64,000 nt of DNA from Pseudomonadota bacterium. Lineage in GTDB: Bacteria; Pseudomonadota; Gammaproteobacteria; Steroidobacterales; Steroidobacteraceae. Made by a program: the position numbers and the translations under genes. Location: positions 1 to 64,000 of the forward strand of contig JANXOV010000080.1 in assembly GCA_025357635.1 (NCBI GenBank), given 5' to 3'. The notes under the pieces are model-generated. The model saw only the letters and a list, made by a program, of their open reading frames with translations. It did no database searches and had not been told where the DNA came from. Of this stretch, positions 1 to 13,208 are shown piece by piece (position 1 is the stretch's first letter; each line of letters begins with the position of its first letter).

Positions 1-21
1 CTGGCAGATCCACTTAGCGCA

Positions 22-531
22 TCAAGAAATCTGTCCTAAGAACCGAAGCCACCCGTGTTCGATGGTGCCTATGGCGAGCACCTCGTCATTCGCGAGATCG
101 AGGTACTCCCGCATGGAGAGGTTCCAGCGCAGCGGGGCATAAAACGGACCCCAGAATCGATCGCCCGCCGGCGGATACCGCACTGCCCTCACGGCCGCCT
201 CGGCATCCGCACGACACGTCGTCATCGGGAAGCAAATGCCCATGGCGCCTAGGTCGAGGGGCGCCTTCGCATGCCACGCAGCACCTCCCGGAACACGTAC
301 AAATGGCACGAGTGGAGTGCCTGATGTAGCGGCGATCATCGCATGCGCGGCGCCCAAGTCGATGGCGCCATGCTCCATGTCGATCACGATCCAGTCCAAT
401 CCTGACCGCGCCATCACCTGAACCACCGAGACTGACGGGCTTGTGACGATTGCTCCGAATGTCACACCTCCATGCGCCCATACGTCGCGGAGACGATTGT
501 GATGGCCAGTTCCTGTGGAACGACTATTCAC
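22..531 (-). pseudogene. HpcH/HpaI-type aldolase, 3'-truncated
   Basis: The product matches the N-terminal two thirds of class II 2-oxo acid aldolases (HpcH/HpaI), which cleave 4-hydroxy-2-oxo acids to pyruvate and an aldehyde. Visible landmarks are the active-site His in DMEHGAID, the Arg in VRVPG and the metal-ligand Glu in IGTIEH. Right after that Glu the reading frame runs into about 10 unrelated residues and stops at 169 aa, where the family is usually about 250 aa. The second metal-ligand Asp and the C-terminal helices are therefore missing, so the protein should be inactive. The break looks like a recombination junction near position 65, because no family sequence resumes in the remaining 60 bases. 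It sits at the edge of a region full of broken genes. Confidence 0.75.
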
Positions 532-579
532 AAACCCTTACCTCCATCGTATGTGTGGCATGGTTCTAGTCCGGCAAGC

Positions 580-966
580 TCACGCAGCTATTCTGTTGCG
601 CGCGCGACCCCGCGGAACGAGCAAATCTGCGGAGATTTGAAAGCGCTCGCGGAGCCGACGCACCATTGTCATGCTCAAGTCCCGCTTTCCGCTCAGGACC
701 TCGCTCACGCGGCTGGCTGTACCAAGTAACGGCACGAGATCGGCGCGCGAAAGGTTATGCTGATCCATAATGTAGGCGAGAAGCACCGGAAGTGTCGGCG
801 CCGTACGTGGCCACTCCGAGCGCTCGTAGGCCTCGACCAAGCGGGCCTGGGCGACCATCCGTGCACGGTCCTTGGGATCGCTCGACCCCATCAGCTTCTC
901 GATAAGCTTCTTGGCGTCAGCGTGGTCCGCTTCATCTTGAATCACAATCAAGGTCGTTTTCATCAC
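580..966 (-). CDS. higA: HigA-type antitoxin (XRE-like HTH)
   Basis: Protein of 128 aa. The C-terminal half (about residues 60-115) reads as a helix-turn-helix DNA-binding domain, with LSRADLVPLLGTASRVSEVLSG typical of HigA antitoxins. The N-terminal half resembles the dimerising extension of the DUF/HigA subgroup (DEADHADAKKLIEKLM). The start codon overlaps the toxin stop by 4 bases, giving the toxin-first order usual for higBA. Its role would be to bind and neutralise the HigB toxin and repress the operon, probably through the inverted repeat at 1303-1327. It appears intact, unlike most genes around it. The family call is confident; function was not tested. Confidence 0.85.
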   Translation of the reverse strand: MMKTTLIVIQDEADHADAKKLIEKLMGSSDPKDRARMVAQARLVEAYERSEWPRTAPTLPVLLAYIMDQHNLSRADLVPLLGTASRVSEVLSGKRDLSMTMVRRLRERFQISADLLVPRGRARNRIAA

Positions 967-1274
967 ACCGTCTCCGCATTAATGCCGTCGTATTCCTCAT
1001 GCGATCCGAAAAAGCGGATCATCAAAACGCCATTCTCGTACTGGACCATCGCAATCAACCGATAATCATTGGCTTTGATATTGAAAACCACACGACCGCC
1101 CTTCAAAACGCTCGCCTTCGGATGCGCCTTTTTTACATCTTCCGGCGTCTTCCAGTCCGCTGTTCCTGCGATCGCGAGCCAGGCGTCATATTGAGACCGC
1201 GCAGCCTTGATTCCCCTATGACCAGCCCGTGATTTGAAATAGGCTTCCACGATATCTGTGCCGATAACGATCAT
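963..1274 (-). CDS. higB: HigB-type mRNA interferase toxin
   Basis: Protein of 103 aa matching the HigB toxin family (RelE-like ribosome-dependent mRNA interferases). The conserved run KASVLKGGRVVFNIKANDYRLIAMVQY and the C-terminal IRFFGSHEEYD are diagnostic. I chose the ATG giving MIVIGTD because family members begin there; an upstream in-frame ATG would add seven hydrophobic residues. The gene overlaps the antitoxin by 4 bases, so the two are translationally coupled. Family knowledge predicts cleavage of translating mRNA when the antitoxin is degraded. It is one of two complete toxin-antitoxin modules in this decayed zone. Confidence 0.87.
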   Translation of the reverse strand: MIVIGTDIVEAYFKSRAGHRGIKAARSQYDAWLAIAGTADWKTPEDVKKAHPKASVLKGGRVVFNIKANDYRLIAMVQYENGVLMIRFFGSHEEYDGINAETV

Positions 1275-1302
1275 GAAGGCAAAAAATAACATCAAAATCC
1301 CA

Positions 1303-1327
1303 AAAATGGAACTCGGACTTCCATTTT
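1303..1327. promoter_or_regulatory. inverted repeat, probable higBA operator
   Basis: A perfect 9 bp inverted repeat (arms AAAATGGAA and TTCCATTTT, 7 bp spacer) lies 28 bp upstream of the higB ATG. Antitoxins of this class normally repress their own operon through such palindromes, so this is the best operator candidate. No clear -35/-10 pair could be assigned with confidence. Confidence 0.55.
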
Positions 1328-1391
1328 ATGGAATACGAATCCGCTGGTTTTGCTGCGCTATCCGGTGAGATCCGTCGGCTTGACGAAATTC

Positions 1392-1812
1392 CCTTCGGCA
1401 TCTATCGCCGTCTATCGTCCCCAAGCGGAAGGTTTTGGCGGTAAATGTGACGGTAAATTTGGCGTACGCTGAGAAGAAGTCTAGTATTTTCAGTCGCTTA
1501 TCAGTGCCGGCGACAATTGAGTGGGAGTGATCGGATATTACATCGGTTTATTTATCTCAATAAAATCAGCATCGTGCAGCGCGCTGGAGACAATTGATAT
1601 TCAATCATTGCAGGCCGCTCAGGAAGTCGCTAACTCATTGAGTGATCAGGTGGCTTGTGATTTCACCTGCATATCTCGGCGCGTTTCAAGCAAACTATTT
1701 TGACGGTAAATCTGACGGTAAAAGTTTTCTGAGCATTTCGCTCCTGGGATTTACCTTCAACCGAAGTGGCCGGCGACGCCAAAGCCTATAAAAAAAGGCA
1801 TATTCTCAATTG
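1392..1812. repeat. degenerate ~420 bp repeat, copy 1
   Basis: This stretch aligns almost end to end with 6557-6976, and its first ~150 bases also align with 8171-8330. It starts with a 10 bp tandem unit (CTATCGCCGT), followed by paired TGACGGTAAAT-like motifs. Then come two versions of a GACAATTGA box (about 1511 and 1589), another pair of GACGGTAAA motifs near 1700-1720, and an A/T-rich end ending in GGCATATTC. No convincing protein is encoded. The bases from here to 1986 hold no gene that I can support. Nature unknown: it could be a non-autonomous mobile repeat or remnants of an integration site region. Confidence 0.7.
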
Positions 1813-1986
1813 GATATCGCCGGGCTTGGGAAATTCCCGAGGCACGTCGCCGGCTTTCTGCCATGCCGTGACCTCCGCCGTGCAAATGGTTCCTCAGGCA
1901 TGACCACGTCAAGGGCAATTCACCGGCGCCCATGGAGATGATTGCTTTGCTGCGCTAAGTTGACCGCCTGAACTCCCGCACCGCAA

Positions 1987-3397
1987 TCAAGTGGGCTCGG
2001 AACCAGCTCTGCGAGAGCAGTGCGCTGAGGACCGCGGAGTCGTGTGTATTCGCATTGCGTTCCGGTACGCTACTCCGTTCTTGACCACGACGTCGATGTT
2101 TGAGAGCACCACGATGTCAAATAGTGGATCTCCCTTCACGACTGCAATGTCGGCAAGCTTGCCGGCTTCGATCGTACCCAAGTCGTGGTCCTGGCCGAGG
2201 ATGCGCGCGTTCACGGACGTTAAGAGCGGCGATCACCTTCGCGGCTGGCATGCCGTGGTCGACGAATACCTTGGCTTCCCGCCACAGTGCATCCGCGTGG
2301 AAGTTGAGCGGCGAGCCGCTATCGGAGCCCATGCCTATGACAGCCCCGGATTTGACCCATTGGTTAATGGAGCCATCGCCGTTCGCCTCCTCCTGCTCGT
2401 GTTTGTTGAAGTAGCTGAGCTTCGAAATATCCCGGAATGATTCGCTCAGCTCTGTCCACATGGCCGACGGAAACTGCCTCCGCAGAAAGGGCTCGTCCAG
2501 TCTCTCGGGGAACTCGCGAGTGGCGGGAAGAACCCAGACGCGGTGTGCGGCGGTCGGCACAATCTGCCGGCCGGACTCTGCAATGTCCTTGACGAGCGCT
2601 GCGCTATAGGGCGGTGTTCCTGCCGAGCCAACGTGTTGGAGTACATCCACGCCAGCGGCGAACGCATTGCGCACATCCTCCTCGTCATAGAGATGGGTAT
2701 GCACCTTGATGTGGTGTTTATGGGCGACCTCAACGATCGCCGCGTATTGATCGGGCGTGAGGCCGCCGTGCAGCTTGATCACGTCGGTGCCGCCACGAAT
2801 GGCGTCCTCGGTGGCGCGGGCAGCTTCCGGCGCTGTACGGACGATGACCTGGTACTTCGTCGGGAAAATCGCGGGCGCTGGGATGAGCCAGGGACCGCTA
2901 ATGGAAAGCCTCGGGCCTGGAACAATGCCTCGGTTGATCCGGTCGCGAACCGCGATGCTTTCTTGTAGCGGCGCGCCGAGATCGGCCGCGGACGTAATCC
3001 CGGCTGCGAGTAGTTGTCGTGCGGAAAGCTCCATCACCCGCTGGATCGGAAATTGGCTGGGATGAGCATCAAGCCAGCTGAACCAGCGCTCGATGTCGCC
3101 ATGTCCGACCAAAACCAGGTGCGCATGAACGTCGATCATGCCCGGCATCATCGTCTCGCCGCTCGTGTCGATGACCGGGATACCCTCGGGCAGCACGATC
3201 TCGGAGGCCGGGCCAGCGGCGACGATTCTGTTGTTTTCGATGAGGACCGCGGCGTGATGGATTGGCGCACCGCCATAGCCATCCAGGAGCATGCCGCCGA
3301 CTAGTGCGAGCCGTGATTGGGGCTGCGCGTGGGCGCCGCTCGCCACCAGGGCCAATACACTCCATCCGAGTACGCCAAGAGACACTCCCTTTATCAT
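1987..3397 (-). pseudogene. secreted metal-dependent amidohydrolase with frameshift
   Basis: An amidohydrolase-superfamily enzyme with an N-terminal signal peptide (ends near GAHA-QPQ). It has the HAHL metal motif about 90 residues in, KLHGG, HTHLYDEED and GSDSGSP, as in imidazolonepropionase/prolidase-like enzymes. The frame is intact to about 2217, then shifts: the expected ALTSVNARILG is recovered only by removing one A from the TTAACG run (plus-strand CGTTAAG, near 2219-2223). The other frame then carries the normal C-terminus (GTIEAGKLADIAVVKGDP). All catalytic motifs lie before the shift, but the C-terminal barrel-closing strands would be lost. It is either a recent pseudogene or a sequencing error. 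The substrate cannot be told. Confidence 0.8.
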
Positions 3398-3492
3398 CGT
3401 TCTCCGTCCTCCGGAATCAAAATCTCAATCGCTCTTTATGAGATTGCATCCCGCGACGTGTATAGCGTGCAATTACTTGCACCAGCCGCGCG

Positions 3493-4926
3493 TTATCCAT
3501 CTGTCGCAGCGAGAGTCGTTTGTTGACGGCGATATCGCATCCACGCAAACACGGGCAAACCGGCACCGATGAGAACGAGCGCAGCGATCACCTCGACGCT
3601 GCCGCGCGCCACGGTCTCGACGATGAGCCAGAGCATCCCAACGAGAAACACGTAGGGCATCCATCGACGCCAAGCCGCCACTGGAGCGCCCTGCGCAGCG
3701 TTCCGATGCCGCCAAAGCAGCAGCCCGAGGGCGTTTAGCGCGAAGAACAAAATCGTTCCAAAAGTAGACATCGTGCTGAGCCGATCGTAGCCTGCGAGCA
3801 GCGCGAAGGTGGCCGCCACGGCGGCCAGCACGGTGATGGCGATGACAGGCGTGCGCGTCGTTGGCGATACACGGCCCAAACCCGCAGGCAAGAGGCCATC
3901 GCGGGCCATCGAAAAGAAAATTCTGGGAACCGCGAGCATATTACAGTGCAGCGTTCCGACCGCCGAGATCATGAATAGGAGGGGCAGTACTTTTCCGGCG
4001 CCGCTGCCCAAGGTCGCCACCGCGGCCCGACTTGCGACGCTCGATGCCCGTGGATAGGCGGTCGAGTTGGCCGTTACGACATCGACGAGAGGCAGGACAT
4101 AGAGGTACGCCATATTGACGGTAACGAACAGTGCAATGATGATGAGCAACCCCAGGGTCAAGGCCCAGGGTAGGTTGCGTTCGGGGTCCTGGACCTCGCC
4201 GCCGACCATCGCAACGTTCTGCCAACCGTTGTAGGCGACGGTAGCGCCGAGCAGAGCAGCGCCGTACGTATTCGGCGATACCATTGCGTGGACGGCGGCC
4301 GCGGTTACCGGTGCGGCCGCAGCGCCCGAAGGCGCGTGCCCCAGTACGACGATCGCAATGATCAGTGCCAGCAGACCCAGGGCTTTGATCGTGGTGATCC
4401 ACGATTGAAATCGCCCCGCCTCGCCGACCCCGCGGATATTGATGATGGCGAGGCCCACGATCAGGAGCACGGCGATCAGCTGCCGCGGCCCGATTTCGAT
4501 GAGGCTATTCGTGGAATTGGAGGGGTTGACGATCACGATCCAAGGTCCGGATAGCGATACTAGATCCGATAGAAATACGGTCGCCGCCACTGCCAAAGCC
4601 GCCACCGTGCCGACGCTGACCGTGAGCCGCATCCAACCGAAAAGAAATGCCGGCAGTTCCCCGAGGGTCACGCGCAGGAACGCGTATTCACCGCCGGAGC
4701 GTGGAATCCGTGCCGCTAGTTCGGCATAGGTTAAAGCGCCGGCGAGGCTCAGAGCTCCTGCGGCGATCCACGCGCTCAGGATCAACGGCACCGAACCAAG
4801 GAGCTGGGCCACTGAGGCCGGGCGAATATAGATCCCCGTACCGAGCATGCCACCAACGACAACGGCGAGCGCATGCCATCGCGTAAGCCCCCGGTGCAGT
4901 CCTTCTTCGGAAGGCGTCGCGCTCAT
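3493..4926 (-). CDS. APC-superfamily amino acid permease
   Basis: Protein of 477 aa with about 12 hydrophobic segments. The first carries the APC signature VVGGMLGTGIYIRPASVAQ and the second region has the PRSGGEYAFLR motif typical of amino acid transporters and exchangers (LAT/YfnA-like). It would sit in the inner membrane and move amino acids by proton symport or exchange; substrate specificity cannot be read from sequence. It lies downstream of, and in the same direction as, the lipocalin-like gene at 4984-5538, and upstream of the broken amidohydrolase, so the three may once have formed one unit. Length is normal and no defect was seen. Confidence 0.88.
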   Translation of the reverse strand: MSATPSEEGLHRGLTRWHALAVVVGGMLGTGIYIRPASVAQLLGSVPLILSAWIAAGALSLAGALTYAELAARIPRSGGEYAFLRVTLGELPAFLFGWMRLTVSVGTVAALAVAATVFLSDLVSLSGPWIVIVNPSNSTNSLIEIGPRQLIAVLLIVGLAIINIRGVGEAGRFQSWITTIKALGLLALIIAIVVLGHAPSGAAAAPVTAAAVHAMVSPNTYGAALLGATVAYNGWQNVAMVGGEVQDPERNLPWALTLGLLIIIALFVTVNMAYLYVLPLVDVVTANSTAYPRASSVASRAAVATLGSGAGKVLPLLFMISAVGTLHCNMLAVPRIFFSMARDGLLPAGLGRVSPTTRTPVIAITVLAAVAATFALLAGYDRLSTMSTFGTILFFALNALGLLLWRHRNAAQGAPVAAWRRWMPYVFLVGMLWLIVETVARGSVEVIAALVLIGAGLPVFAWMRYRRQQTTLAATDG

Positions 4927-4983
4927 GCGCCCGCGCTCTGCGGCTGGCGATGGATCAAAGGCCGAGTACCGATGGCATCCGCG

Positions 4984-5538
4984 TTACTTCAACCGGGTCC
5001 AAACCAAGGTCCGCACGACGGGCGTCCCATCTCGCAGCGTCGTATGGAATTTGATCGTCAGCGTGTCCCCAGCAAGCACGAAGTCCCGCTTGATGTCCTT
5101 GCCGATATCTCCGGGAAACAGAGCGCTTTCCAAATGGTGGGTGACAATTCCGGCCTTCACGTCGACCGTATAGGTACCGAAATACGCGTCGTAGCCCAGG
5201 ATCGTCTGCGCCGTATCATTGGTGCCTTTCACCTTCTCAGCCTCACGGCACTCATCGCCAAGCATATCCAACGTTCGGCCCGGGCGGGATAGCTGAGCGG
5301 CCACGTGCCCATAGCGATCGTAGATCAGGACGCCCCTAGGCGTTGCAGACAGGCCCGGATCGGAGAGCGCTTTCCCGTCCTCGGTGGTTGTAACTCTGGA
5401 AACGAGGCCCCAGCCGCCTACTAGCTGTTCAACGACGCCGGACGGGGTAACCGCGTCGGCGTTCGCGGTGGCCATGGGTGTCATCAGCGGCAGGCCCGCA
5501 AATACGACCGCCAGAACTATTAGATCACCGATCCGCAT
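4984..5538 (-). CDS. secreted lipocalin-like domain protein
   Basis: Protein of 184 aa. The chosen ATG gives a clean signal peptide (MRIGDLIVLAVVFAGLPLMTPMATANA); the frame stays open further upstream but that part looks random. The mature part fits the lipocalin-like family (Lipocalin_5): it begins LVGGWGLVSRVTTTEDGK and contains the family-typical GVLIYDRYGHVAAQLSRPGR and YDAYFGTYTVD. Such proteins are small beta-barrels, often encoded near catabolic enzymes, with no proven general function. It is probably exported to the periplasm. Ligand unknown. Confidence 0.78.
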   Translation of the reverse strand: MRIGDLIVLAVVFAGLPLMTPMATANADAVTPSGVVEQLVGGWGLVSRVTTTEDGKALSDPGLSATPRGVLIYDRYGHVAAQLSRPGRTLDMLGDECREAEKVKGTNDTAQTILGYDAYFGTYTVDVKAGIVTHHLESALFPGDIGKDIKRDFVLAGDTLTIKFHTTLRDGTPVVRTLVWTRLK

Positions 5539-5942
5539 TTTGGGCGCCTCGTTAATGACGATTAGTTCATTCCTTCCTGTTGGAAATACTATAGACCATC
5601 TACTGGCTACAATCCTGGGGTACCAAAAACCAATGCTGAACGGATCGCACATGCCTGCGGCGACCCCGTGATCTAAGTGGTTCCCGTGTCTGTTGCTGTC
5701 ACCTGACGAGGAGGCTCGAGGTCTTGTATATTCCCAATCATGATGCACTCAACAATCCAGGCGGCTGATGTGGTTTGCACCGCACCCTGCAAAGGTCGAT
5801 GTGGCTTCTGCGTCGATTTTGCTCAATTGATCAAGCTCTACCGCGAAGCAAGTCGATCACGGGGCGGTCTATGCGCTTGACGTCGATTACGGGTCTGATC
5901 AGCTTGATCATGGCCATATCGCCTGAGAGTGCTGTGCCGTAA
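5539..5942. other. stretch without a supported gene
   Basis: About 400 bases between the lipocalin-like start and a broken SnoaL-like gene. Short open frames exist on both strands but have no recognisable family pattern. The promoter of the lipocalin-like gene should lie at the left edge, but no clear boxes were found. Confidence 0.5.
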
Positions 5943-6340
5943 GCCTCCGCCGATAATCCGCGCGCTGCTTTCGAACGCTTCATCGCCGCCTTCAACGCGC
6001 TAGATTGGAAAGCATTTCGAGACTGCTTTGCGGACACGGCGACTCTGTTCAATCCCGATATTCTGGACGCGGTGTCGCTTCATCGATTAAATGGCCGCAC
6101 TGACATTGAACGAAGCTTTCCGCTGTGTTCAATGCGGCGCATGGTCACGGACCCAAAATTCGCCCTGAGAACGTACGCATTCAGGAATTCTCAGATACGG
6201 CGATCGTCACGTTTGAGTTCAGTCGGCCGAAACACTCTTTCGGCCGTCGGACGATCGTCTTCAATAGGCAGGGCGCCCAGTGGCTGATCGTTCACGTTCA
6301 CGCATCCAACGTTGTTTCTTCGGTAGAGTCGGGCAATTGA
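5943..6340 (+). pseudogene. SnoaL-like/DUF4440-type protein, frameshifted and 5'-truncated
   Basis: Reading from 5943, the frame gives NPRAAFERFIAAFNALDWKAF, then CFADTATLFNPD, typical of small SnoaL/NTF2-like proteins. Near 6118 the match jumps to another frame, which continues FNAAHGHGPKIRPENVRIQ, then TIVFNRQGAQWLIVHVHAS, and ends at 6340. Restoring one missing base in AGCTTTCCGCTG would join the two halves. Upstream the frame meets a stop at 5940, so the start and any signal peptide are gone. The gene is therefore broken twice. Such domains usually form small enzymes or ligand-binding cones; no specific role can be given. Confidence 0.7.
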
Positions 6341-6556
6341 GTGCTCCGCGGGCTGGCGGCATATCCACCGTTGGGTGGATGTCAACGTCTACCGCGAGTC
6401 TACCGATCAACTGACCACAACGAGGTAACCGCGTGATTTCCGAGCAGGAAAACACTTCAGCGCCGACTATCGTCAGAGGCCCTGGACTAAGACTTCCTGA
6501 CTGTCGTAAGGATCCACTGATGGCTGTTCTCGTCACATGGCCGCCAAAGCGCATTG

Positions 6557-6976
6557 ACCCTTTCGGTACCTATCGCCTTCTATCGCCCTCAAGTGGAATG
6601 TTTTGGCGGTACATGTGACGGTAAATTTGACGCACCCTGAAAGGAAGTGCCGTATTTTCAGGTGCTTATACGGGCAGGAGACAATTGAGTGGGAGTAATT
6701 CGGGCACCTCATCAAAAATAGTGCATATTGATCAATAAGTTATCCGTGCCGGAGACAATTGATATTCAATCGTCGCAGCCCCCTTTGGGGGTCGCTAAGT
6801 GCTTGAGTCATCAGGTGTTTTGTGATTTCGCCTGCATGTCTCGGCGCGATCCAAGCGAACATTTTTGGCGGTAAATATGACGGTAAAAGTTTTCTGGGCA
6901 TTTTGCTCGTAGGATTTACCGTCAGACGGAGTGCTAGGCGACGCCAAAGCCTATAAATAAAGGCATATTCGCAATG
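6557..6976. repeat. degenerate ~420 bp repeat, copy 2
   Basis: Direct-orientation partner of 1392-1812 with the same order of motifs: 10 bp CTATCGCC tandem, paired TGACGGTAAAT motifs, GAGACAATTGAGTGGGAGT, GAGACAATTGATATTCAATC, then a second TGACGGTAAA pair. Here the TGACGGTAAA at 6878-6887 faces a perfect inverted TTTACCGTCA at 6915-6924. The two full copies bracket about 4.7 kb containing the amidohydrolase, permease, lipocalin-like and SnoaL-like genes. No protein is encoded. Confidence 0.7.
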
Positions 6977-7046
6977 GTCTCTCACCGCGCTCCGGGAATC
7001 CTCGATTTACATCGCCGACTCCCTCACATCATGATCCGGCAGTTGC

Positions 7047-7075
7047 TTGCGAATAGGTAACGTAAACGTTACTAT
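7047..7075 (+). promoter_or_regulatory. promoter and palindromic operator of the second toxin-antitoxin module
   Basis: A TTGCGA box (7047-7052) and a TACTAT box (7070-7075) are 17 bp apart, a good sigma-70 arrangement. Between them and reaching into the -10 is a 16 bp palindrome (arms GTAACGT and ACGTTAC, 7057-7072). Transcription would start about 6-7 bases after the -10, that is at or next to the toxin ATG at 7082. A repressor bound here would block the polymerase, as expected for autoregulation by the antitoxin. Confidence 0.6.
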
Positions 7076-7081
7076 AAGAAA

Positions 7082-7441
7082 ATGAAAATCTGGGTCGAAG
7101 AATACATTCGCCCTGATGGGTCGAGTCCATACGCAGAATGGTTCGATACCCTGGATGCCCGAGCGGCGGCGAAGGTCACGACCGCGAAGCTGCGCATGGA
7201 ACTCGGCAACACGTCCAATGTGAACTGGTTTGCAGGCATCGGCGAATACGTAATCGATTGGGGTCCGGGTTATCGGATTTATCTGGCGAAGGACGGCGAA
7301 TCGCTGATCGTGTTGTTTGGCGGTGGAACCAAGCGCCGACAGCAATCAGATATCGATCGGGCGAAAGCGCTGCACTCGGAGTACAAGGCCCGAAAGGCGC
7401 CTCGGCCGGTCGACCACAATGCCAAGAAGCGAAAGAGGTAA
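7082..7441 (+). CDS. RelE/ParE-superfamily toxin (phage Gp49/HigB-like)
   Basis: Protein of 119 aa with the Gp49-like/HigB addiction-module pattern: MKIWVEEYIRPDGSSPYAEWFDTLD, then KVTTAKLRMELGN and the core YRIYLAKDGESLIVLFGGGTKRRQQSDIDRAK. The family consists of RelE-fold toxins, generally ribosome-dependent endonucleases. It is followed after 5 bases by its antitoxin. No Shine-Dalgarno sequence precedes the ATG, which fits the leaderless transcript predicted from the promoter. The basic C-terminus (KKRKR) is common in these toxins. It belongs to a different toxin subfamily from the HigB at 963-1274, so the two modules are not duplicates. Confidence 0.87.
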   Translation: MKIWVEEYIRPDGSSPYAEWFDTLDARAAAKVTTAKLRMELGNTSNVNWFAGIGEYVIDWGPGYRIYLAKDGESLIVLFGGGTKRRQQSDIDRAKALHSEYKARKAPRPVDHNAKKRKR

Positions 7442-7446
7442 AGACC

Positions 7447-7779
7447 ATGGCACTTACTCGTGATTTCAAGAAGTCAGTCGTTGCTCGCGTCGAACGTGAT
7501 CCCGCGTTCGCGAAGGCGCTCCTGGATGAGGCGGCAACGATGTTTCTGGGTGGCGAACCGGAGACGGCGCGTCTCATTCTGCGCGATCTCGTGAATGCGA
7601 CTCTCGGTTTTGAAAGATTGGCCAAGGTAACGGCCACGCCGAGCAAGAGTCTCCATAGGATGCTGTCGCCGAAAGGCAATCCAAGCATGGATAACCTGGC
7701 GGCAATTTTTGATGCAATAAGGAAGTGTCTCAAAGTGGGCCTCAAGGCCCATACGGTGAACCTGCGGAAAGTGGCGTAG
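7447..7779 (+). CDS. addiction-module antidote protein (HigA-like HTH)
   Basis: Protein of 110 aa. It begins MALTRDFKKSVVARVERDPAFAKALLDEA and carries a Cro/CI-like HTH in its second half (LAKVTATPSKSLHRMLSPKGNPSMDNLAAIFDAIRKCL). This is the usual layout of antidotes paired with Gp49-type toxins, where the N-terminal helices bind the toxin and the HTH binds the operator. The ATG at 7447 is preceded by AGAGGTAAAGACC, giving a usable ribosome site. It is translated just behind the toxin and likely represses the promoter at 7047-7075. Confidence 0.87.
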   Translation: MALTRDFKKSVVARVERDPAFAKALLDEAATMFLGGEPETARLILRDLVNATLGFERLAKVTATPSKSLHRMLSPKGNPSMDNLAAIFDAIRKCLKVGLKAHTVNLRKVA

Positions 7780-7784
7780 CGGAA

Positions 7785-8131
7785 GTGGCGTTCGCTGAGA
7801 TTGAACTGGCGCGGGTGCACAGAGCGATGGATTCATTCATGCAACGTCGTCGACCGCCTGCACATATCCGTCCGTAGATCTTGCATTCCGCATAACGGAT
7901 CAGAGCGTTGAGATTTTTGAAATCCGACCTGCCTGGCAGGGCCCGGCAAACGAGAAGCAGGAATCGCCGGTAGCGAAGGCGACCTACGTCAGATCTCGTG
8001 GTGTGTGGCGCGTGTTCTGGCAGCGTCGCGATTTGAAATGGCATTGCTACGACCCAACGCCAGAGGTGAAGTCCGTCGAGGAATTTGCATCACTGGTAGG
8101 CGAGGACGCGCATGCTTGCTTCTTCGGTTGA
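7785..8131 (+). pseudogene. DUF3024 protein, frameshifted
   Basis: The first frame from GTG 7785 reads VAFAEIELARVHRAMDSF followed by RRRPPAHIRP and then stops. A second frame resumes at once with LDLAFRITDQSVEIFEIRP, then VAKATYVRSRGVWRVFWQRR, LKWHCYDP and EFASLVGEDAHACFFG. Together they give a complete DUF3024 protein of about 115 aa interrupted near 7878 by loss of a few bases (total length is not a multiple of three). DUF3024 proteins are small, of unknown function and common in accessory DNA. It begins 5 bases after the antitoxin, so it may once have been a third gene of that operon. Confidence 0.78.
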
Positions 8132-8170
8132 GCATGGACCCCGTAACCGCTTACGCAATGCCGTTCGAGC

Positions 8171-8330
8171 TATTCGCGATCTATCGCCGTCTATCGCCGT
8201 CTATCGCCGTCTATCGTGCTCAAGCGGAAGTTCCGGGCGGTAGATTTGACGGTAAGTCCGGCGTGCGCGGCAAAGAAGACTCGTAAAGTCAATGGTTTAT
8301 CCGTGCCGGAGACGATTGAGTGGGAGTAAG
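8171..8330. repeat. degenerate repeat, half copy 3
   Basis: It matches the first ~150 bases of the repeats at 1392 and 6557. The 10 bp unit CTATCGCCGT occurs three times in perfect tandem (8181-8210), followed by a fourth partial unit. Then come GGCGGTAGATTTGACGGTAAG and GAGACGATTGAGTGGGAGTAAG. The second half of the element is absent. The following 240 bases up to 8572 hold no gene that I can recognise. Confidence 0.65.
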
Positions 8331-8572
8331 GGGCCCCGTTCAATATTGCCATGGTTACTGGCTGTGGTGGGAGAGCGGAACCTATGGGGAAACTGGCAAT
8401 GACTCGGTGTGCCGTGCGCGCGCGAATTGACTCAACACGGGGCTTTCTGGGAAGACCTGGGGAGCTTTATTGGTTGCTGTGGAGCAGCCATTCTCGGCCT
8501 GCGCTACTCTGACGCTGGCGTTTGTGCGCCCTGGCGGCCAGACCCGCATGATTTCATCGGAAGGTAATACTG

Positions 8573-9061
8573 TTGCGGACGAAAGGATCTGTATTCATCA
8601 ATTGGCGGGCCGCGTTTTGGGCGGGCATAGCCTATACGATAGCCGTATTCGTGTTCGCTTTCGCCGTTGGTACGATCCGAGTTACGGTGGTCGTTCCTCG
8701 GCTGGGCTCACTTCTTGCGGTGATCATCGAAGCGCCTATCGTGCTCGCCGTGAGTTGGTTCGCTTCGCTGTGGTGTATTCGGCGTTTCAGTGTGAGTCAC
8801 GACGCTAGCGCTCGGACACTGATGGGAGCAGTAGCCTTCATGTTCCTCATGCTACTCGAGCTGGGTTTCTCGGTTTTCGTATTTGGTGAGCCGGTCGGTC
8901 ACTACTTCGCGAAATTCACATCAATACCCGGCGCAATCGGCTTAGTGATGCAAGCCTGCTTCGCGGCACTTCCCTGGGTCCAATGCAATCTGCCCTCCAA
9001 AGCCGGGCAGATTTTGGCATCGAAGTCCGGTGAGCAGCCTCCTGAGGCACGACAGCAATAG
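8573..9061 (+). CDS. small integral membrane protein, unknown function
   Basis: Protein of 162 aa with about four hydrophobic segments (roughly residues 13-35, 42-66, 80-105 and 115-133) and a short polar C-terminus. No known family is recognised. It stands alone between the third repeat copy and an oppositely directed membrane protein gene. The coding call rests on length, clean membrane-protein composition and lack of a better frame. The start codon is uncertain. Confidence 0.5.
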   Translation: MRTKGSVFINWRAAFWAGIAYTIAVFVFAFAVGTIRVTVVVPRLGSLLAVIIEAPIVLAVSWFASLWCIRRFSVSHDASARTLMGAVAFMFLMLLELGFSVFVFGEPVGHYFAKFTSIPGAIGLVMQACFAALPWVQCNLPSKAGQILASKSGEQPPEARQQ

Positions 9062-9130
9062 GTGAGGTTCTGACGAATTGCATATGCTGCAAGCACCGGC
9101 ATGGTGGCGACTGGCACCAAGATCGACTGG

Positions 9131-9799
9131 TCAGTGCGCCGCGTTGCTCGTACTCGGTGCTCTGCGCAGCATGATCGCCAGCATCAGCATGAAAAGGGGC
9201 GCCGTGATCGCCCATGGAAGCCCCAGAAAAAGTAGCCTGGCGGAAAAAGTCGGAGCGAAATAGACAATACAGATGAGCGGGGTGACGAGAGCGTTGGCGA
9301 AGAGTGATCGCCTGACCCAGCGCTCAAAGCCGGTGCTGTTGAGTGCGGGTATGGCGAGCAGACATGCCAAGCCCATTGCGATATAGCCAATTGCGTCATA
9401 GTCCCAAAACATGGAATGGGGAGTTTGCTCCAGAAGTCGAGTGGCGTCCGTTATCCCATGCAGCTTTGCAGGGATGACTGTTGCGAGTTGGACGACATAA
9501 TTTGCACTCGCGAAGACCGCGTAAACAACCGTAAAGACCAGTGCTGCGTGTGTCCAGAATTGCTTCTCGACAGCTGTTACGTAATGAAGTGCCAGCATCT
9601 CCAGAATAAATGGCACGACGATACAGAGTGAGGTCCCGTAGATCAGAATTTCGTCGACCGGAAAACGAAGTATGCCGGCGACCTGCAGGATCTGAACGAA
9701 GTCGAAGGCGACGGTCGACGTGAAGGCCGCCAGACCACACCAATATCCTATGTTGCGCATACTCCAGCTTGATGGCGCTCCTTTGTTGGACGCGCTCAT
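9131..9799 (-). CDS. six- to seven-segment membrane protein, unknown function
   Basis: Protein of 222 aa with six or seven predicted membrane helices beginning at WCGLAAFTSTVAFDFVQILQ. The layout, with a conserved-looking WDYDAIGYIAMGLACLLAIPAL segment, resembles DUF4386-like hypothetical membrane proteins, but I cannot name a family firmly. It would sit in the inner membrane. It lies next to a destroyed hydrolase and shows no defect itself. Confidence 0.6.
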   Translation of the reverse strand: MSASNKGAPSSWSMRNIGYWCGLAAFTSTVAFDFVQILQVAGILRFPVDEILIYGTSLCIVVPFILEMLALHYVTAVEKQFWTHAALVFTVVYAVFASANYVVQLATVIPAKLHGITDATRLLEQTPHSMFWDYDAIGYIAMGLACLLAIPALNSTGFERWVRRSLFANALVTPLICIVYFAPTFSARLLFLGLPWAITAPLFMLMLAIMLRRAPSTSNAAH

Positions 9800-9920
9800 C
9801 AGCGGTCGAGCCCGTTGTGAATGTTTGTCACCTCGAACAAAGCACCTTCCGGGTGGATCAGATGCTGCGATCCGGGAATTGGACGGTGGGCGAAGTGCCG
9901 CTTTGTCCTCTTAGTTTGCT

Positions 9921-10640
9921 TCATGCGGTTGGCCCTACGCTCGATTCAGGCTCCAGGCAGTGAAGCCGCCGTCTGGTAGACCCGCGCCGTTGCCTGATCC
10001 GAATTGCGATCTCAACATGCGGAGACTGGCCGGATTCCTCAAACCTGACAAGTCGCTTCGAGGGGGCCGACAGCACGTCGAAGTAGGCCGCGCTGAATGT
10101 TGGGTAGATCGAAGATCGACGACTCCGGGCCCCCGAGTACGATTCGCCCAATCTCCCACGTGGACGTTCCCCCTGGGTGCCCGCGACACGATCAAGCCAC
10201 GTGCGCTGCACCCACAATTGTTCGGCGCTATGGGGCGGCGCGCCGATGAAACGAAGTTCCTTGATGCCCTTGCGGTTGTTGCAGCGATCCAGTTCGGCCA
10301 GCTCGAACGCATATGATGACGGCTCGCCCGCCGGCCAGTCGCCAATCTGTCCGCTCCCGACATAGGCCGCGACTTTGCCTGGAAAGCGTGCGGCATAGAG
10401 CACGCCCAGTGCCGAGCCCCACGAGTGCCCGAAGATCGTAACCTTGCGGGTTCCAAGCCTCTTCCTGATCACATCGATTAACTCGTCCAGATCGGCGATG
10501 AACTGCTCGACCGTCATGGGGGATTTGACGGTTGTGCGGTCGAACGATTTAACGGCGCCGCGCTGGCCCCAGTTGACGACCGTGAAACACTTCTCCAGCG
10601 GGGCGTTGAAGTGACGGAAGAGACGCATCTCTGTGAACAG
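9921..10640 (-). pseudogene. alpha/beta hydrolase (proline iminopeptidase-like), heavily broken
   Basis: Clear pieces of an alpha/beta hydrolase remain: LFRHFNAPLEKCFTVVNWGQRGA, MTVEQFIADLDELIDVIRKRLG, the nucleophile elbow GHSWGSALGVLYAARFPGKVAAYVG, and near the end AYFDVLSAPSKRLVRFEESG. The oxyanion-hole region (HGGPG in relatives) is missing upstream. A different frame carries WEIGRIVLGGPESSIFDLPNIQR around 10080-10150. That piece then joins directly to the C-terminal piece, so about 60 residues containing the cap and the acid residue are deleted. With at least two frameshifts and a deletion, this cannot be functional. Confidence 0.75.
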
Positions 10641-10725
10641 GCACGGAAGATTGACCAGGAATATCGCGTGTCGTGCGAGGCGGATCAACACGTTGCGGCG
10701 CCGGGCAGCGTCCAAAGCGGACGCC

Positions 10726-10833
10726 GGTTTACCTACCTGGCCGCACGCGCGCAGTTGGGGCTATGGTCCCAGCGGCATTGTCGGGGTGGTGCTGATCATC
10801 GTGATCATCCTGTATTTGATGGGGCGCTTGTAA
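10726..10833 (+). pseudogene. DUF3309 family 3' fragment
   Basis: The 35 residues from 10726 read LPTWPHARSWGYGPSG followed by a hydrophobic tail ending LYLMGRL. This matches the second half of DUF3309, a tiny membrane protein family whose conserved core is PxWPxSRxWGYxPSGxxG. The first hydrophobic helix that should precede it is absent; the upstream frame contains unrelated basic residues opposite the broken hydrolase. It is probably a deletion junction product. Confidence 0.65.
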
Positions 10834-10835
10834 AG

Positions 10836-10976
10836 GTTTTCGATTTATCGCTCTGGCTGTTGGGGCGCTGGCTGGCGACCGGCGTTTGCCTCGCCGGAGC
10901 GGGGGGTTGCGCCTCACTTCCCGATCTCTGGCAACAGCGGGCTATAAACCAGGCCAGCCCCGTGGTGCCTGGGTAA
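10836..10976 (+). pseudogene. lipoprotein-like N-terminal remnant
   Basis: The frame reads VFDLSLWLLGRWLATGVCLAGAGGCASLPD and ends after some 15 further residues. It looks like a lipoprotein signal peptide with a lipobox (GAGGC), but there is no ATG and the mature protein is only about 20 residues. It follows the DUF3309 fragment and overlaps the 3' end of the opposite regulator gene. Weakly supported. Confidence 0.3.
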
Positions 10977-11682
10977 CAAGGTGTCTTGCATACGACTGCA
11001 GGCTGGTTGCGTAGCAGCCGCAGGCAGCGCCTTCCAAGCCCTGGCGGTCAATGACCGTGAGCTCCCCGCGGCGATACTTGATCAATCCACGGCGCTGCAA
11101 AGCATTCGCAGCATTGGTAATGCCAACGCGTCTCACGCCAAGCATGTAGGAAAGAAACTCGTGGGTGATGCGGAAGCTTTCGCTGGCGGCGCGATCCTGT
11201 GTCATCAATAACCAACGGGCAAGCCGCGGTCCAATCTCGTGAAAGCGTATGCAAGCCGCGTTAGCGCTCAGTTGGCTCATCATGACGAATACATATCGAT
11301 CTATGCATTTAAGCAATGCAGGGCTTCTGTCGAATTCCTTGCAAAAATCTCGTGCCGTGATCCGCCATGCAGAGCCCGCACCCTGAACCAACAATTGGAA
11401 CGGCGAGGTCTTCACGCCCAACACCATCGTCACCCCCACCATGCCCTCGTTGCCGACCATACCCACTTCGAGCACCGGTTTATCCCGTATCACGGCGATC
11501 AGCGATACAAACGATCGAGTTGGAAAGTAGACGTGTCGTATTGGTTTGCCGCTCTCACACAGGATTTCCCGCAAGACCAGCTGGACCGGCTCGCTGACCG
11601 CCAGAAGCCGCGTCCGCTCTTTGCGCGGAAGAAGATCGAAAATGCGGTTCGAGGCATCGGGCAAATTGTTTCTCCGGCGCAT
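10942..11682 (-). CDS. Crp/Fnr-family transcriptional regulator
   Basis: Protein of 246 aa from the ATG giving MRRRNNLPDASNRIFDLLP. The first ~140 residues form a cyclic-nucleotide-binding-like sensor fold (RHVYFPTRSFVSLI, then VLEVGMVGNEGMVGVTMVLG). The C-terminal part is a Crp-type winged helix, with SFRITHEFLSYMLGVRRVGITNAANALQRRGLIKYRRG as recognition region. This subfamily lacks the FNR cysteine cluster and the usual cAMP contacts, so the signal is unknown. The gene is divergent from the histidine kinase at 11892, with about 210 bp between them in which both promoters must lie. Confidence 0.85.
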   Translation of the reverse strand: MRRRNNLPDASNRIFDLLPRKERTRLLAVSEPVQLVLREILCESGKPIRHVYFPTRSFVSLIAVIRDKPVLEVGMVGNEGMVGVTMVLGVKTSPFQLLVQGAGSAWRITARDFCKEFDRSPALLKCIDRYVFVMMSQLSANAACIRFHEIGPRLARWLLMTQDRAASESFRITHEFLSYMLGVRRVGITNAANALQRRGLIKYRRGELTVIDRQGLEGAACGCYATSLQSYARHLVTQAPRGWPGL

Positions 11683-11891
11683 GGTAGCGGCGGCGGGAAG
11701 TTCAATGTGCCCACAATTCGCTAGGCGCCATGGAAACACATTGAAGCGGAGTATGCACAATTCGTTCTTGCGGCACTGTCTGCCAGCACACATACCGCCG
11801 AGATCCGCGAAACCGGTCATATGTACGATGGCGTACAGACGCGAACCGGTATCGACAGTAGTTTGATCGAGTTGAAGGGCAGGGATCGTTG

Positions 11892-13208
11892 ATGCTGAGG
11901 GAACAACCGGTCCATGCGAACGATAACTCTGAAGAATCCGACCAGGATATCGAGGCGATTGCGCGCATCTGTGCCGTACCTATCTTATTGAATGTTTTGT
12001 GCGATTCCATTGGCGCGAGCTTTGCCGCGATCGTTCGCACCAACCGCAATGGCGGAAGTGTCTGTGCTGTAGAGCATCGCATGCTAAGCGGTCTGAAAGC
12101 AGGCGATCCGTTCTCGTGGGGGTTGATTTTGCGCGCTGGCCGGCATCACTCGAACGAAACTTCCGGCGGCAGCAAAAGCTCTGCACCACCGATGCCCACC
12201 GAAAACCACATCTATGAACCCATTGTCCTGACCGACGGTCGCCATGTCGGCGATCTGTGCGCCGTTCATCGCCGGCCTTCGAGTGAACTGCAACCGTGGA
12301 TGAAACAGATGTTCCGCAGTTTCTCGAAGCTCATCGGGCTGGAGCTCGAAAAGGAGCTGAATCGTGGCCGAGAGAATGCCGCACTGATCGACGAACGCGC
12401 CGCGGTTGAATTGAGAGAGCAATTCGTCGCGATCCTCGGCCATGATTTGCGTAATCCTTTACATGCCATTTCGACCATCGGCGTGCTTCTCCAGCAACAT
12501 TTGACCGACCCGCGCATGATCGACATGGCCGCACGTATCCGCACCAGCACACGGCGCATGTCCACTCTGATCGATGACACACTTGATTTCGCGCGCGTAA
12601 GGCTCGGGGGCGGATTGAGTGTGGAGATCAAGGAAGTCGCGAACATCGAAGTTGCATTGTCCGCTGCGGTCCGGGAACTGCAAGACGGTCACCCTGCGCG
12701 TCGTATCACCTCCGATATTTCCGTGAGATACCCGGTCAGATGCGATGTAGGGAGGCTTCAGCAACTCGTGTCGAACCTGCTCAGCAATGCTCTCAGCCAC
12801 GGATATGCTGACAGCACGGTCCGATTCACGGCCAAGTCAGATTCTCACTATCTGGTCTTGGAAGTGTGGAATGACGGCGACCCATTGTCGCCGACGATCA
12901 TCGCGCAATTGTTTCATCCGTTTTGGAGATATAACGTTGAGAGAACGCGCGAAGGACTCGGACTGGGGCCTCATATCTGCAATCAGATCGCCCGCGCGCA
13001 TCATGGAAACCTTACGGTAACTTCCGAACGCCACGGCGGAACCACGTTTACCGCCCGATTGCCGTCAAGCGAATTGTCTCGTCGCGCGGCTGTTGATCGA
13101 GACCAATCCGCGCCGGCGTTCGATAGCGGCGCTCCGCGACCAATCAATTTCAGCGAATCAACCAGTATTGGCGCGACGGAAATCCCGCGTAACTCAGTGC
13201 GAAATTAG
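11892..13208 (+). CDS. sensor histidine kinase, GAF-like plus kinase core
   Basis: Protein of 438 aa without membrane segments. Residues about 20-155 look like a GAF-type sensor. The dimerisation helix carries the phospho-acceptor in GHDLRNPL (His184), followed by the N box NLLSNALSHG (about 296-304), the G1 WNDGDPL and a G2-like LGLGPHI, so the kinase core is complete. The C-terminal 45 residues after ARLPSS are low-complexity. No response regulator gene is adjacent, so it is an orphan kinase, presumably cytoplasmic. Divergent from a Crp-like regulator. Confidence 0.88.
   Translation: MLREQPVHANDNSEESDQDIEAIARICAVPILLNVLCDSIGASFAAIVRTNRNGGSVCAVEHRMLSGLKAGDPFSWGLILRAGRHHSNETSGGSKSSAPPMPTENHIYEPIVLTDGRHVGDLCAVHRRPSSELQPWMKQMFRSFSKLIGLELEKELNRGRENAALIDERAAVELREQFVAILGHDLRNPLHAISTIGVLLQQHLTDPRMIDMAARIRTSTRRMSTLIDDTLDFARVRLGGGLSVEIKEVANIEVALSAAVRELQDGHPARRITSDISVRYPVRCDVGRLQQLVSNLLSNALSHGYADSTVRFTAKSDSHYLVLEVWNDGDPLSPTIIAQLFHPFWRYNVERTREGLGLGPHICNQIARAHHGNLTVTSERHGGTTFTARLPSSELSRRAAVDRDQSAPAFDSGAPRPINFSESTSIGATEIPRNSVRN

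Follow-up and report, generated by a model that had tools for sequence, protein, structure and literature searches.

The 64,000-nucleotide stretch analyzed here (the window; start of contig JANXOV010000080.1, our C84, of the Steroidobacteraceae assembly GCA_025357635.1, our genome G000) carries degenerate direct repeats of about 420 bp. We conclude, with a probability of roughly 0.87, that these repeats are hybrid attachment (att) sites between integrase-less cassettes, which are arrayed in tandem at the 3' end of the GMP synthase gene, guaA, and served by guaA-specific integrases. In each repeat, one unit's right end (RE, 139 bp) abuts the left end of the next (~280 bp). REs share a fixed anatomy and orientation, the same units recur across genera with edges at the repeat boundaries, and relatives carry beside guaA an integrase gene with the same arm motifs, akin to the integrase of GIsul2-type islands.

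Repeat copies and the guaA 3' end

A DNA search of the own genome recovered the repeat copies at 1392-1812 and 6557-6976 (E = 1.4e-95) and a recurrence of their first part at 8171-8330 (E = 2.3e-26). The motifs named in the initial annotation are present well above expectation: TGACGGTAAA occurs 14 times in the window with at most one mismatch (1.66 expected), 10 of these within the three repeat copies, and CTATCGCCGTCTATCG five times with at most two mismatches (0.03 expected). The inverted pair described for copy 2 was likewise recovered, with TGACGGTAAA at 6878-6887 opposite TTTACCGTCA at 6915-6924 and 27 bases between them. What had been overlooked is that the first "GACAATTGA" box is the guaA 3' end. 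As the alignment of the copies and the relatives reveal, it runs on as GAGTGGGAGTGA and encodes PATIEWE-stop, with which GMP synthase ends; directly behind the guaA stop codon of two relatives (G013 and G008) comes the second half of the repeat. Copy 3 shows the RE alone because the unit that follows it has a different left end (type A, not B).

The suspicion that the repeats are scars of repeated site-specific integration was thus right in essence, as they resemble att junctions. The competing idea of a 420-bp non-autonomous mobile element has to be abandoned, the recurring unit being the DNA between repeats, and the 4.7-kb gene block once read as a single element forms one unit in a stack of at least two. 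Nor do the repeats fall outside every known element class, since in anatomy they are similar to the att sites of GIsul2-type islands, which integrate at guaA. The window has no tRNA gene that could act as the target, and positions 1-12000 gave no match to a known RNA family at gathering score. The features of the array are as follows.

580..966, minus strand: antitoxin-like gene, PD-Lambda-2_B-like, in the unit ending at copy 1 (PADLOC PDLC03982, E=1.2e-26, 120/402 profile positions; HTH_3 below Pfam's cut-off)
963..1295, minus strand: HigB-type toxin gene, PD-Lambda-2_A-like, same unit (Pfam HigB_toxin, E=1e-25; PADLOC PDLC03979, E=2e-26)
1392..1530, plus strand: RE of copy 1, the right end (P arm and core) of the upstream unit (RE profile 132.7 bits, copy in training set; 12-RE alignment)
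1504..1530, plus strand: core of copy 1, guaA 3' end (exact ATTGAGTGGGAGTGA at 1516-1530)
1531..1812, plus strand: left end of type B, cassette 1 (arm pair 1701-1722; inverted arm 1750-1759 with 1 mismatch)
1531..6698, plus strand: cassette 1, 5168 bp (core boundaries)
2117-3397, minus strand: amidohydrolase, cassette 1 (Pfam)
3493-4926, minus strand: amino-acid permease, cassette 1 (Pfam)
4984-5748, minus strand: lipocalin-like, cassette 1 (Pfam)
6560..6698, plus strand: RE of copy 2 (RE profile 121.0 bits, copy in training set; core ATTGAGTGGGAGTAA at 6684-6698)
6699..6976, plus strand: left end of type B, cassette 2 (arm pair 6866-6887; inverted arm 6915-6924)
6699..8329, plus strand: cassette 2, 1631 bp (common to genomes G289 and G166)
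7082..7441, plus strand: RelE/ParE-type toxin, cassette 2 (NCBIfam TIGR02683, E=3.9e-21; no Pfam or PADLOC match)
7447..7779, plus strand: probable antitoxin partner, cassette 2 (by position alone; no match in Pfam, PADLOC or NCBIfam)
8191..8329, plus strand: RE of copy 3 (RE profile 107.9 bits, copy in training set; CTATCG tandem from 8181; core ATTGAGTGGGAGTAA at 8315-8329)
8330..8415, plus strand: left end of type A of the next unit (left-end listing and pattern sorting)

Cassettes 1 and 2 are each bounded by two guaA-type cores and an arm-bearing right end; for the unit that starts at 8330, no right end was found within the window. The search for further copies in the own genome returned a fourth RE on contig C152 (G000:C152:430-551, E = 1.0e-18), which adjoins, as L035:429-556, a weakly Phd/YefM-like antitoxin gene (L035:96-353; below Pfam's cut-off).

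A standardized right end

Alignment of 12 copies (c1 to c4 and eight others) sets the RE at 139 bp, comprising a CTATCG tandem, a pair of TGACGGTAAA arms, and the last ~27 bp of guaA. The arm-to-core pattern (ACGGTAA, 50-75 bases, GAGTGGGAGT) occurs in 28 of 396 genomes drawn from the order and its reversed version in 4. On stretches fetched from the 28 positive genomes, an RE profile built from 43 copies, which match by construction, finds 66 copies with a core end at E<1e-8, with up to five on one stretch and nine on the stretches of a single genome (G380 and G166 each). Spacing is nearly invariant: among the 50 core copies that have an arm upstream, TGACGGTA and GAG are 71 bp apart in 47, 83 in two, and 72 in one. 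The left edge looks sharp, with the majority base at no more than 0.66 in the preceding 80 columns and at least 0.82 in the first six inside (38 copies), a contrast that is partly selection because the profile was cut at that edge; unselected BLAST matches, among those listed, start 138-139 bp before the core in three pairs and 156 in one. Wherever REs share a fetched stretch with guaA, they are downstream of it and co-oriented (13/13, in eight genomes).

Among named GTDB contigs, the fixed-spacing pattern was found in at least 80 stretches, a set that overlaps the 28 genomes. They come from Steroidobacteraceae, unclassified gammaproteobacterial bins, many Burkholderiales (Variovorax, Ottowia, Comamonas, Diaphorobacter, and others), and Ferrovum, along with some bins assigned to other phyla, possibly through misbinning. 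The profile matches 78 of the 80 stretches listed; guaA lies on 13 of the 80, and in the 12 of these with a called RE, the RE is again downstream and co-oriented. Across the phylum, the pattern is rare (2/398 genomes, one of them the own genome; control, 1). It is absent from the viral contigs searched, and one RE used as a query (from G201) had no match in plasmids or phages.

Small units, left ends, and cargo

Consecutive cores delimit 34 closed units of 601 to 14,456 bp (median, 2,299), some boundaries being degenerate, including those of the smallest unit. With cores at both ends, none of the 34 matches the 418-amino-acid (aa) integrase described below; two hold integrase arm domains, perhaps remnants. 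The sole integrase match in the unit scan is a truncated gene beside guaA in G014.

Left ends are more diverse. Hand-made patterns, which give rough class counts, sort 77 junctions into types A to E and leave 45 unassigned; they missed clear type-A ends (G344 and G363), and one assignment (G027) is doubtful. Type B, that of window copies 1 and 2, has arms at about +170 and +182 in seven junctions, and type C at about +116 and +128.

In the window, the cargo comprises HigB-type and RelE/ParE-type toxins and the metabolic genes of cassette 1; the HigB-type toxin and antitoxin pair scores with PD-Lambda-2 defense models. Among 30 of the 101 open reading frames (ORFs) in units, hand-picked from mostly small units and so not amenable to an enrichment test, 18 match toxin-antitoxin (TA), Fic, AbiE, PIN, AAA_14/DUF4143, nucleotidyltransferase, or TOTE-type models, and the other 12 are transporters, enzymes, or regulators or have no clear match.

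The same units in different genera

Window positions 6560-8335 (RE, unit, and RE) align with G289 over 1784 bp at 85.7% identity, from 138 bp before one core to 6-8 bp past the next, and the DNA on both sides of cassette 2 has no similarity to G289. The guaA genes of the two genomes are only 72.6% identical (1362 bp). This 1.63-kb TA unit is thus present in another genus, with match edges at the repeat boundaries. G166 also has it (90% over 1449 bp, reaching within 32 bp of its contig end). The TA unit that ends at copy 1 (window 555-1530) matches G344 (87.6%, 977 bp; guaA, 73.1%) and G380 (87.7%, 970 bp), both matches ending exactly at the core, and G166 and G181 share a Fic unit at 96% over 1234 bp.

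When the family was searched with the inner part of cassette 2 and at most two candidates were scored per genome, 12 matches turned up in 11 of 217 genomes, one of the matches being the window itself. Both full-length foreign matches sit between REs (G289, and G166 with its right RE cut by the contig end), and a partial match in G281 has an RE on either side. Sharing of whole units was observed among genera of one family, and the RE alone was traced beyond it.

An integrase gene beside guaA

In 7 of the 217 family genomes (G014, G267, G301, G289, G246, G218, and G383, counting the query's own), guaA is followed by a type-C left end and the start of an integrase gene, and all seven loci carry TGACGGTAA arms. 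G267, G246, and G216 yielded the complete 418-aa protein; that of G246 has the Pfam domains Arm-DNA-bind_3, Phage_int_M, and Phage_integrase (arm binding, central, and catalytic), a set that we label P4-type. The family protein search, scoring up to eight candidates a genome, added relatives at 57-61% identity in G379, G437, G281, and G393, with exact TGACGGTAA arms in the first two. Taking gene starts and relatives of at least 57% together, the integrase or its start is beside guaA in 11 of 12 genomes; none of 21 loci with integrases of 41% identity or less shows guaA.

The G246 integrase is 52% identical (206/397) to that of a plasmid of Acinetobacter baumannii ATCC 17978, an accession also found beside guaA in Escherichia coli XJW9B263, followed there by arsenic genes and ISCR2. 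We take these islands to be GIsul2 from context (integrase, rep/trb and ars genes, ISCR2, and guaA), as the name is not on the records. In E. coli XJW9B263, CATGGTAT and CATGGCAC lie 12 bp apart and ~70 bp before the GAGTGGGA of the internal core upstream of ISCR2, and no CATGGTAT lies between that core and ISCR2. Before the integrase gene of a third relative (57.8% identical), a CTATCG tandem, a CAAGC box, and TGACGGTAT arms can be made out by eye. Judging from these sequences, site anatomy seems to go with the integrase family, the arms differing in sequence.

Two further observations concern this protein family. Units of G021 and G285 hold a frame in which the arm-binding domain is joined to an IS240-type DDE transposase (L072:7683-8771 and L147:10828-11904); these look like integrase genes broken by insertion, perhaps remnants. 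On a circular record of 3975 bp from Sphingomonas (NZ_CP155767.1, L304), labelled a plasmid, the annotation lists only guaA, a related integrase, and an AlpA-family gene.

Proposed mechanism and alternatives

These data are consistent with the following route. Each unit would consist of a left end, cargo, and the 139-bp right end, the last part of which duplicates the guaA 3' end. On excision, the two ends of the unit would meet on a circle and form an attP-like site. Integration at a guaA-type core would then install the unit in the same orientation and restore a fresh core, and units would stack head to tail for that reason. The presumed target of recombination is the guaA core ATTGAGTGGGAGT, and the candidate catalyst is the guaA-specific P4-type tyrosine integrase encoded beside guaA in relatives, which would bind the TGACGGTAAA arms and act in trans. 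According to the GIsul2 report (PMC9376610), the GIsul2 integrase excises and integrates GIsul2 itself as well as a unit without an integrase that lies between guaA-type cores, and integrase and att sites are both required for movement. The window units may likewise be mobile, possibly crossing between cells, and related bacteria appear to swap cassettes in an integron-like manner.

Several observations weigh against this interpretation. Most left ends are arm-less, as 62 of the 77 junctions have no TGACGGTAA-type arm within 330 bp rightward. Arm-less type-A units nonetheless appear plausible, because CR2-sul2 moves with an apparently arm-less left end. The own guaA is near the end of contig C137, separate from the window on C84, and no arms lie in the 400 bp to its right; insertion at the guaA 3' end with a duplicated core is seen in relatives. 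Window positions 22-531 and the C137 end (L062:3097-3318) are the apparent N- and C-terminal parts of one HpcH/HpaI aldolase (the former by Pfam, the latter by eye), which suggests that C84 follows C137 as its neighbor. The fixed integrase that the initial annotation proposed to look for is present beside guaA in relatives, and the own assembly holds no close one (best, 31% identity, on C100). Around its 16 tyrosine recombinase loci, 15 have no arms, and one (L025, on C100) has a single arm-like 8-mer inside the 3' part of the integrase gene itself. Moreover, around a 98% identical integrase in G216 (L189/L173, G216:C117), the 1.5 kb fetched contain neither guaA nor a core nor an TGACGGTAA arm, and of the four guaA-adjacent relatives at 57-61% identity, G281 and G393 lack an exact TGACGGTAA. 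Eight of the 12 cassette 2 matches have no RE in the fetched flanks (up to 1.5 kb); relatives of its genes also live outside such arrays. Finally, units may be exchanged by homologous recombination between REs.

The most serious competitor, which we still consider unlikely, is that the units are decayed islands (cis-mobilizable elements [CIMEs]) accreted at guaA and inherited rather than swapped as cassettes. A three-step route to such accretion is described in PMC5704250, and the arm domains fused to IS240-type frames in G021 and G285, perhaps remnants, would fit it. The units are small (down to 888 bp) and their right ends standardized, however, and the same unit occurs in different genera at an identity far above that of guaA, with dissimilar flanks in G289.

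Rolling-circle transposition of the IS91/ISCR type could also build an array, starting one-endedly from the core and carrying neighboring genes. IS91-type transposase genes directly to the right of guaA in G013 and G008 (L033:20-1534 and L034:9420-10934) and a partial gene of this type within G207's first unit (L146:4235-5269) speak for it, as does the proposed terIS of CR2, which begins inside the att core (PMC9376610). This route is nevertheless very improbable, as it is at odds with arm pairs at fixed spacing, with integrase genes that have the same arms beside guaA, and with the reported requirement for integrase and att sites (PMC9376610); the five proteins scanned from the two closed units of the window match no transposase, other units having been scanned in part. 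As an observation in its own right, the IS91-type genes behind guaA echo ISCR2 behind the internal att core of the GIsul2-type island.

Spread of the repeats through homologous recombination or gene conversion alone, independent of any site-specific recombinase, would agree with own-genome REs that are 76-82% alike, but it leaves the guaA-end core and arm anatomy unexplained, and the edges of shared units fall at cores; we give it hardly any weight. An integron with attC sites can practically be dismissed: the cassettes are small and co-oriented and several have TA genes, but the sites have arm-type anatomy and the candidate integrase is P4-type. Folding of three REs in the manner of attC, on both strands, gave no clear excess over shuffles (z, -1.6 to +0.8).

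Islands at guaA, internal att sites, and CIME accretion are already known. Among the matches listed in the open-access PMC literature, we found no report of multi-unit guaA cassette arrays, in which numerous small units shared across genera end in a common right end; these would be the new feature here. It is about an even bet that guaA constitutes a second, integron-independent cassette platform in Beta- and Gammaproteobacteria, at which TA- and defense-rich cassettes with a 139-bp right end would be captured, stacked, and exchanged across genera by GIsul2-family integrases in trans, CR2-sul2 (ISCR2) being one clinical cassette of an older environmental system. The array interpretation extends the two-unit case of resistance islands to environmental arrays of small units, gives a testable route for single TA or defense operons to move without their own transposase or integrase, and hints at the origin of ISCR2-type units. 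The RE is also a sequence signature for finding such arrays.

Comparison with known systems

Integron cassette arrays consist of tandem, co-oriented small cassettes among which TA genes are common. The arrays described here differ from them in att sites that are not attC-like, a P4-type candidate integrase, and guaA as the target. With CIMEs and tandem accretion (PMC5704250), they appear to share integrase-less units between att sites and tandem stacks; the units here, in contrast, are small, have a common right end, and recur across genera.

The closest likeness is to GIsul2 and its CR2-sul2 unit (PMC9376610). Common to both systems are the guaA 3' end, the core GAGTGGGA, and a P4-type integrase (here a candidate, 52% identical to that of a GIsul2-type island), and in both an internal att site bounds an integrase-less unit, with an arm-like pair ~70 bp upstream of the core. 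The arms are CATGGTAT there and TGACGGTAA here. GIsul2 has one internal unit, whereas up to five REs occur per fetched stretch (nine per genome) in our set. GIsul2-type islands encode a GIsul2-family P4-type integrase, as do the elements of the relatives, whereas the own assembly is without a close one. The cargo differs as well: drug resistance in GIsul2/CR2-sul2 and, among the ORFs scanned here, often TA, Fic, AbiE, and AAA-DUF4143 genes.

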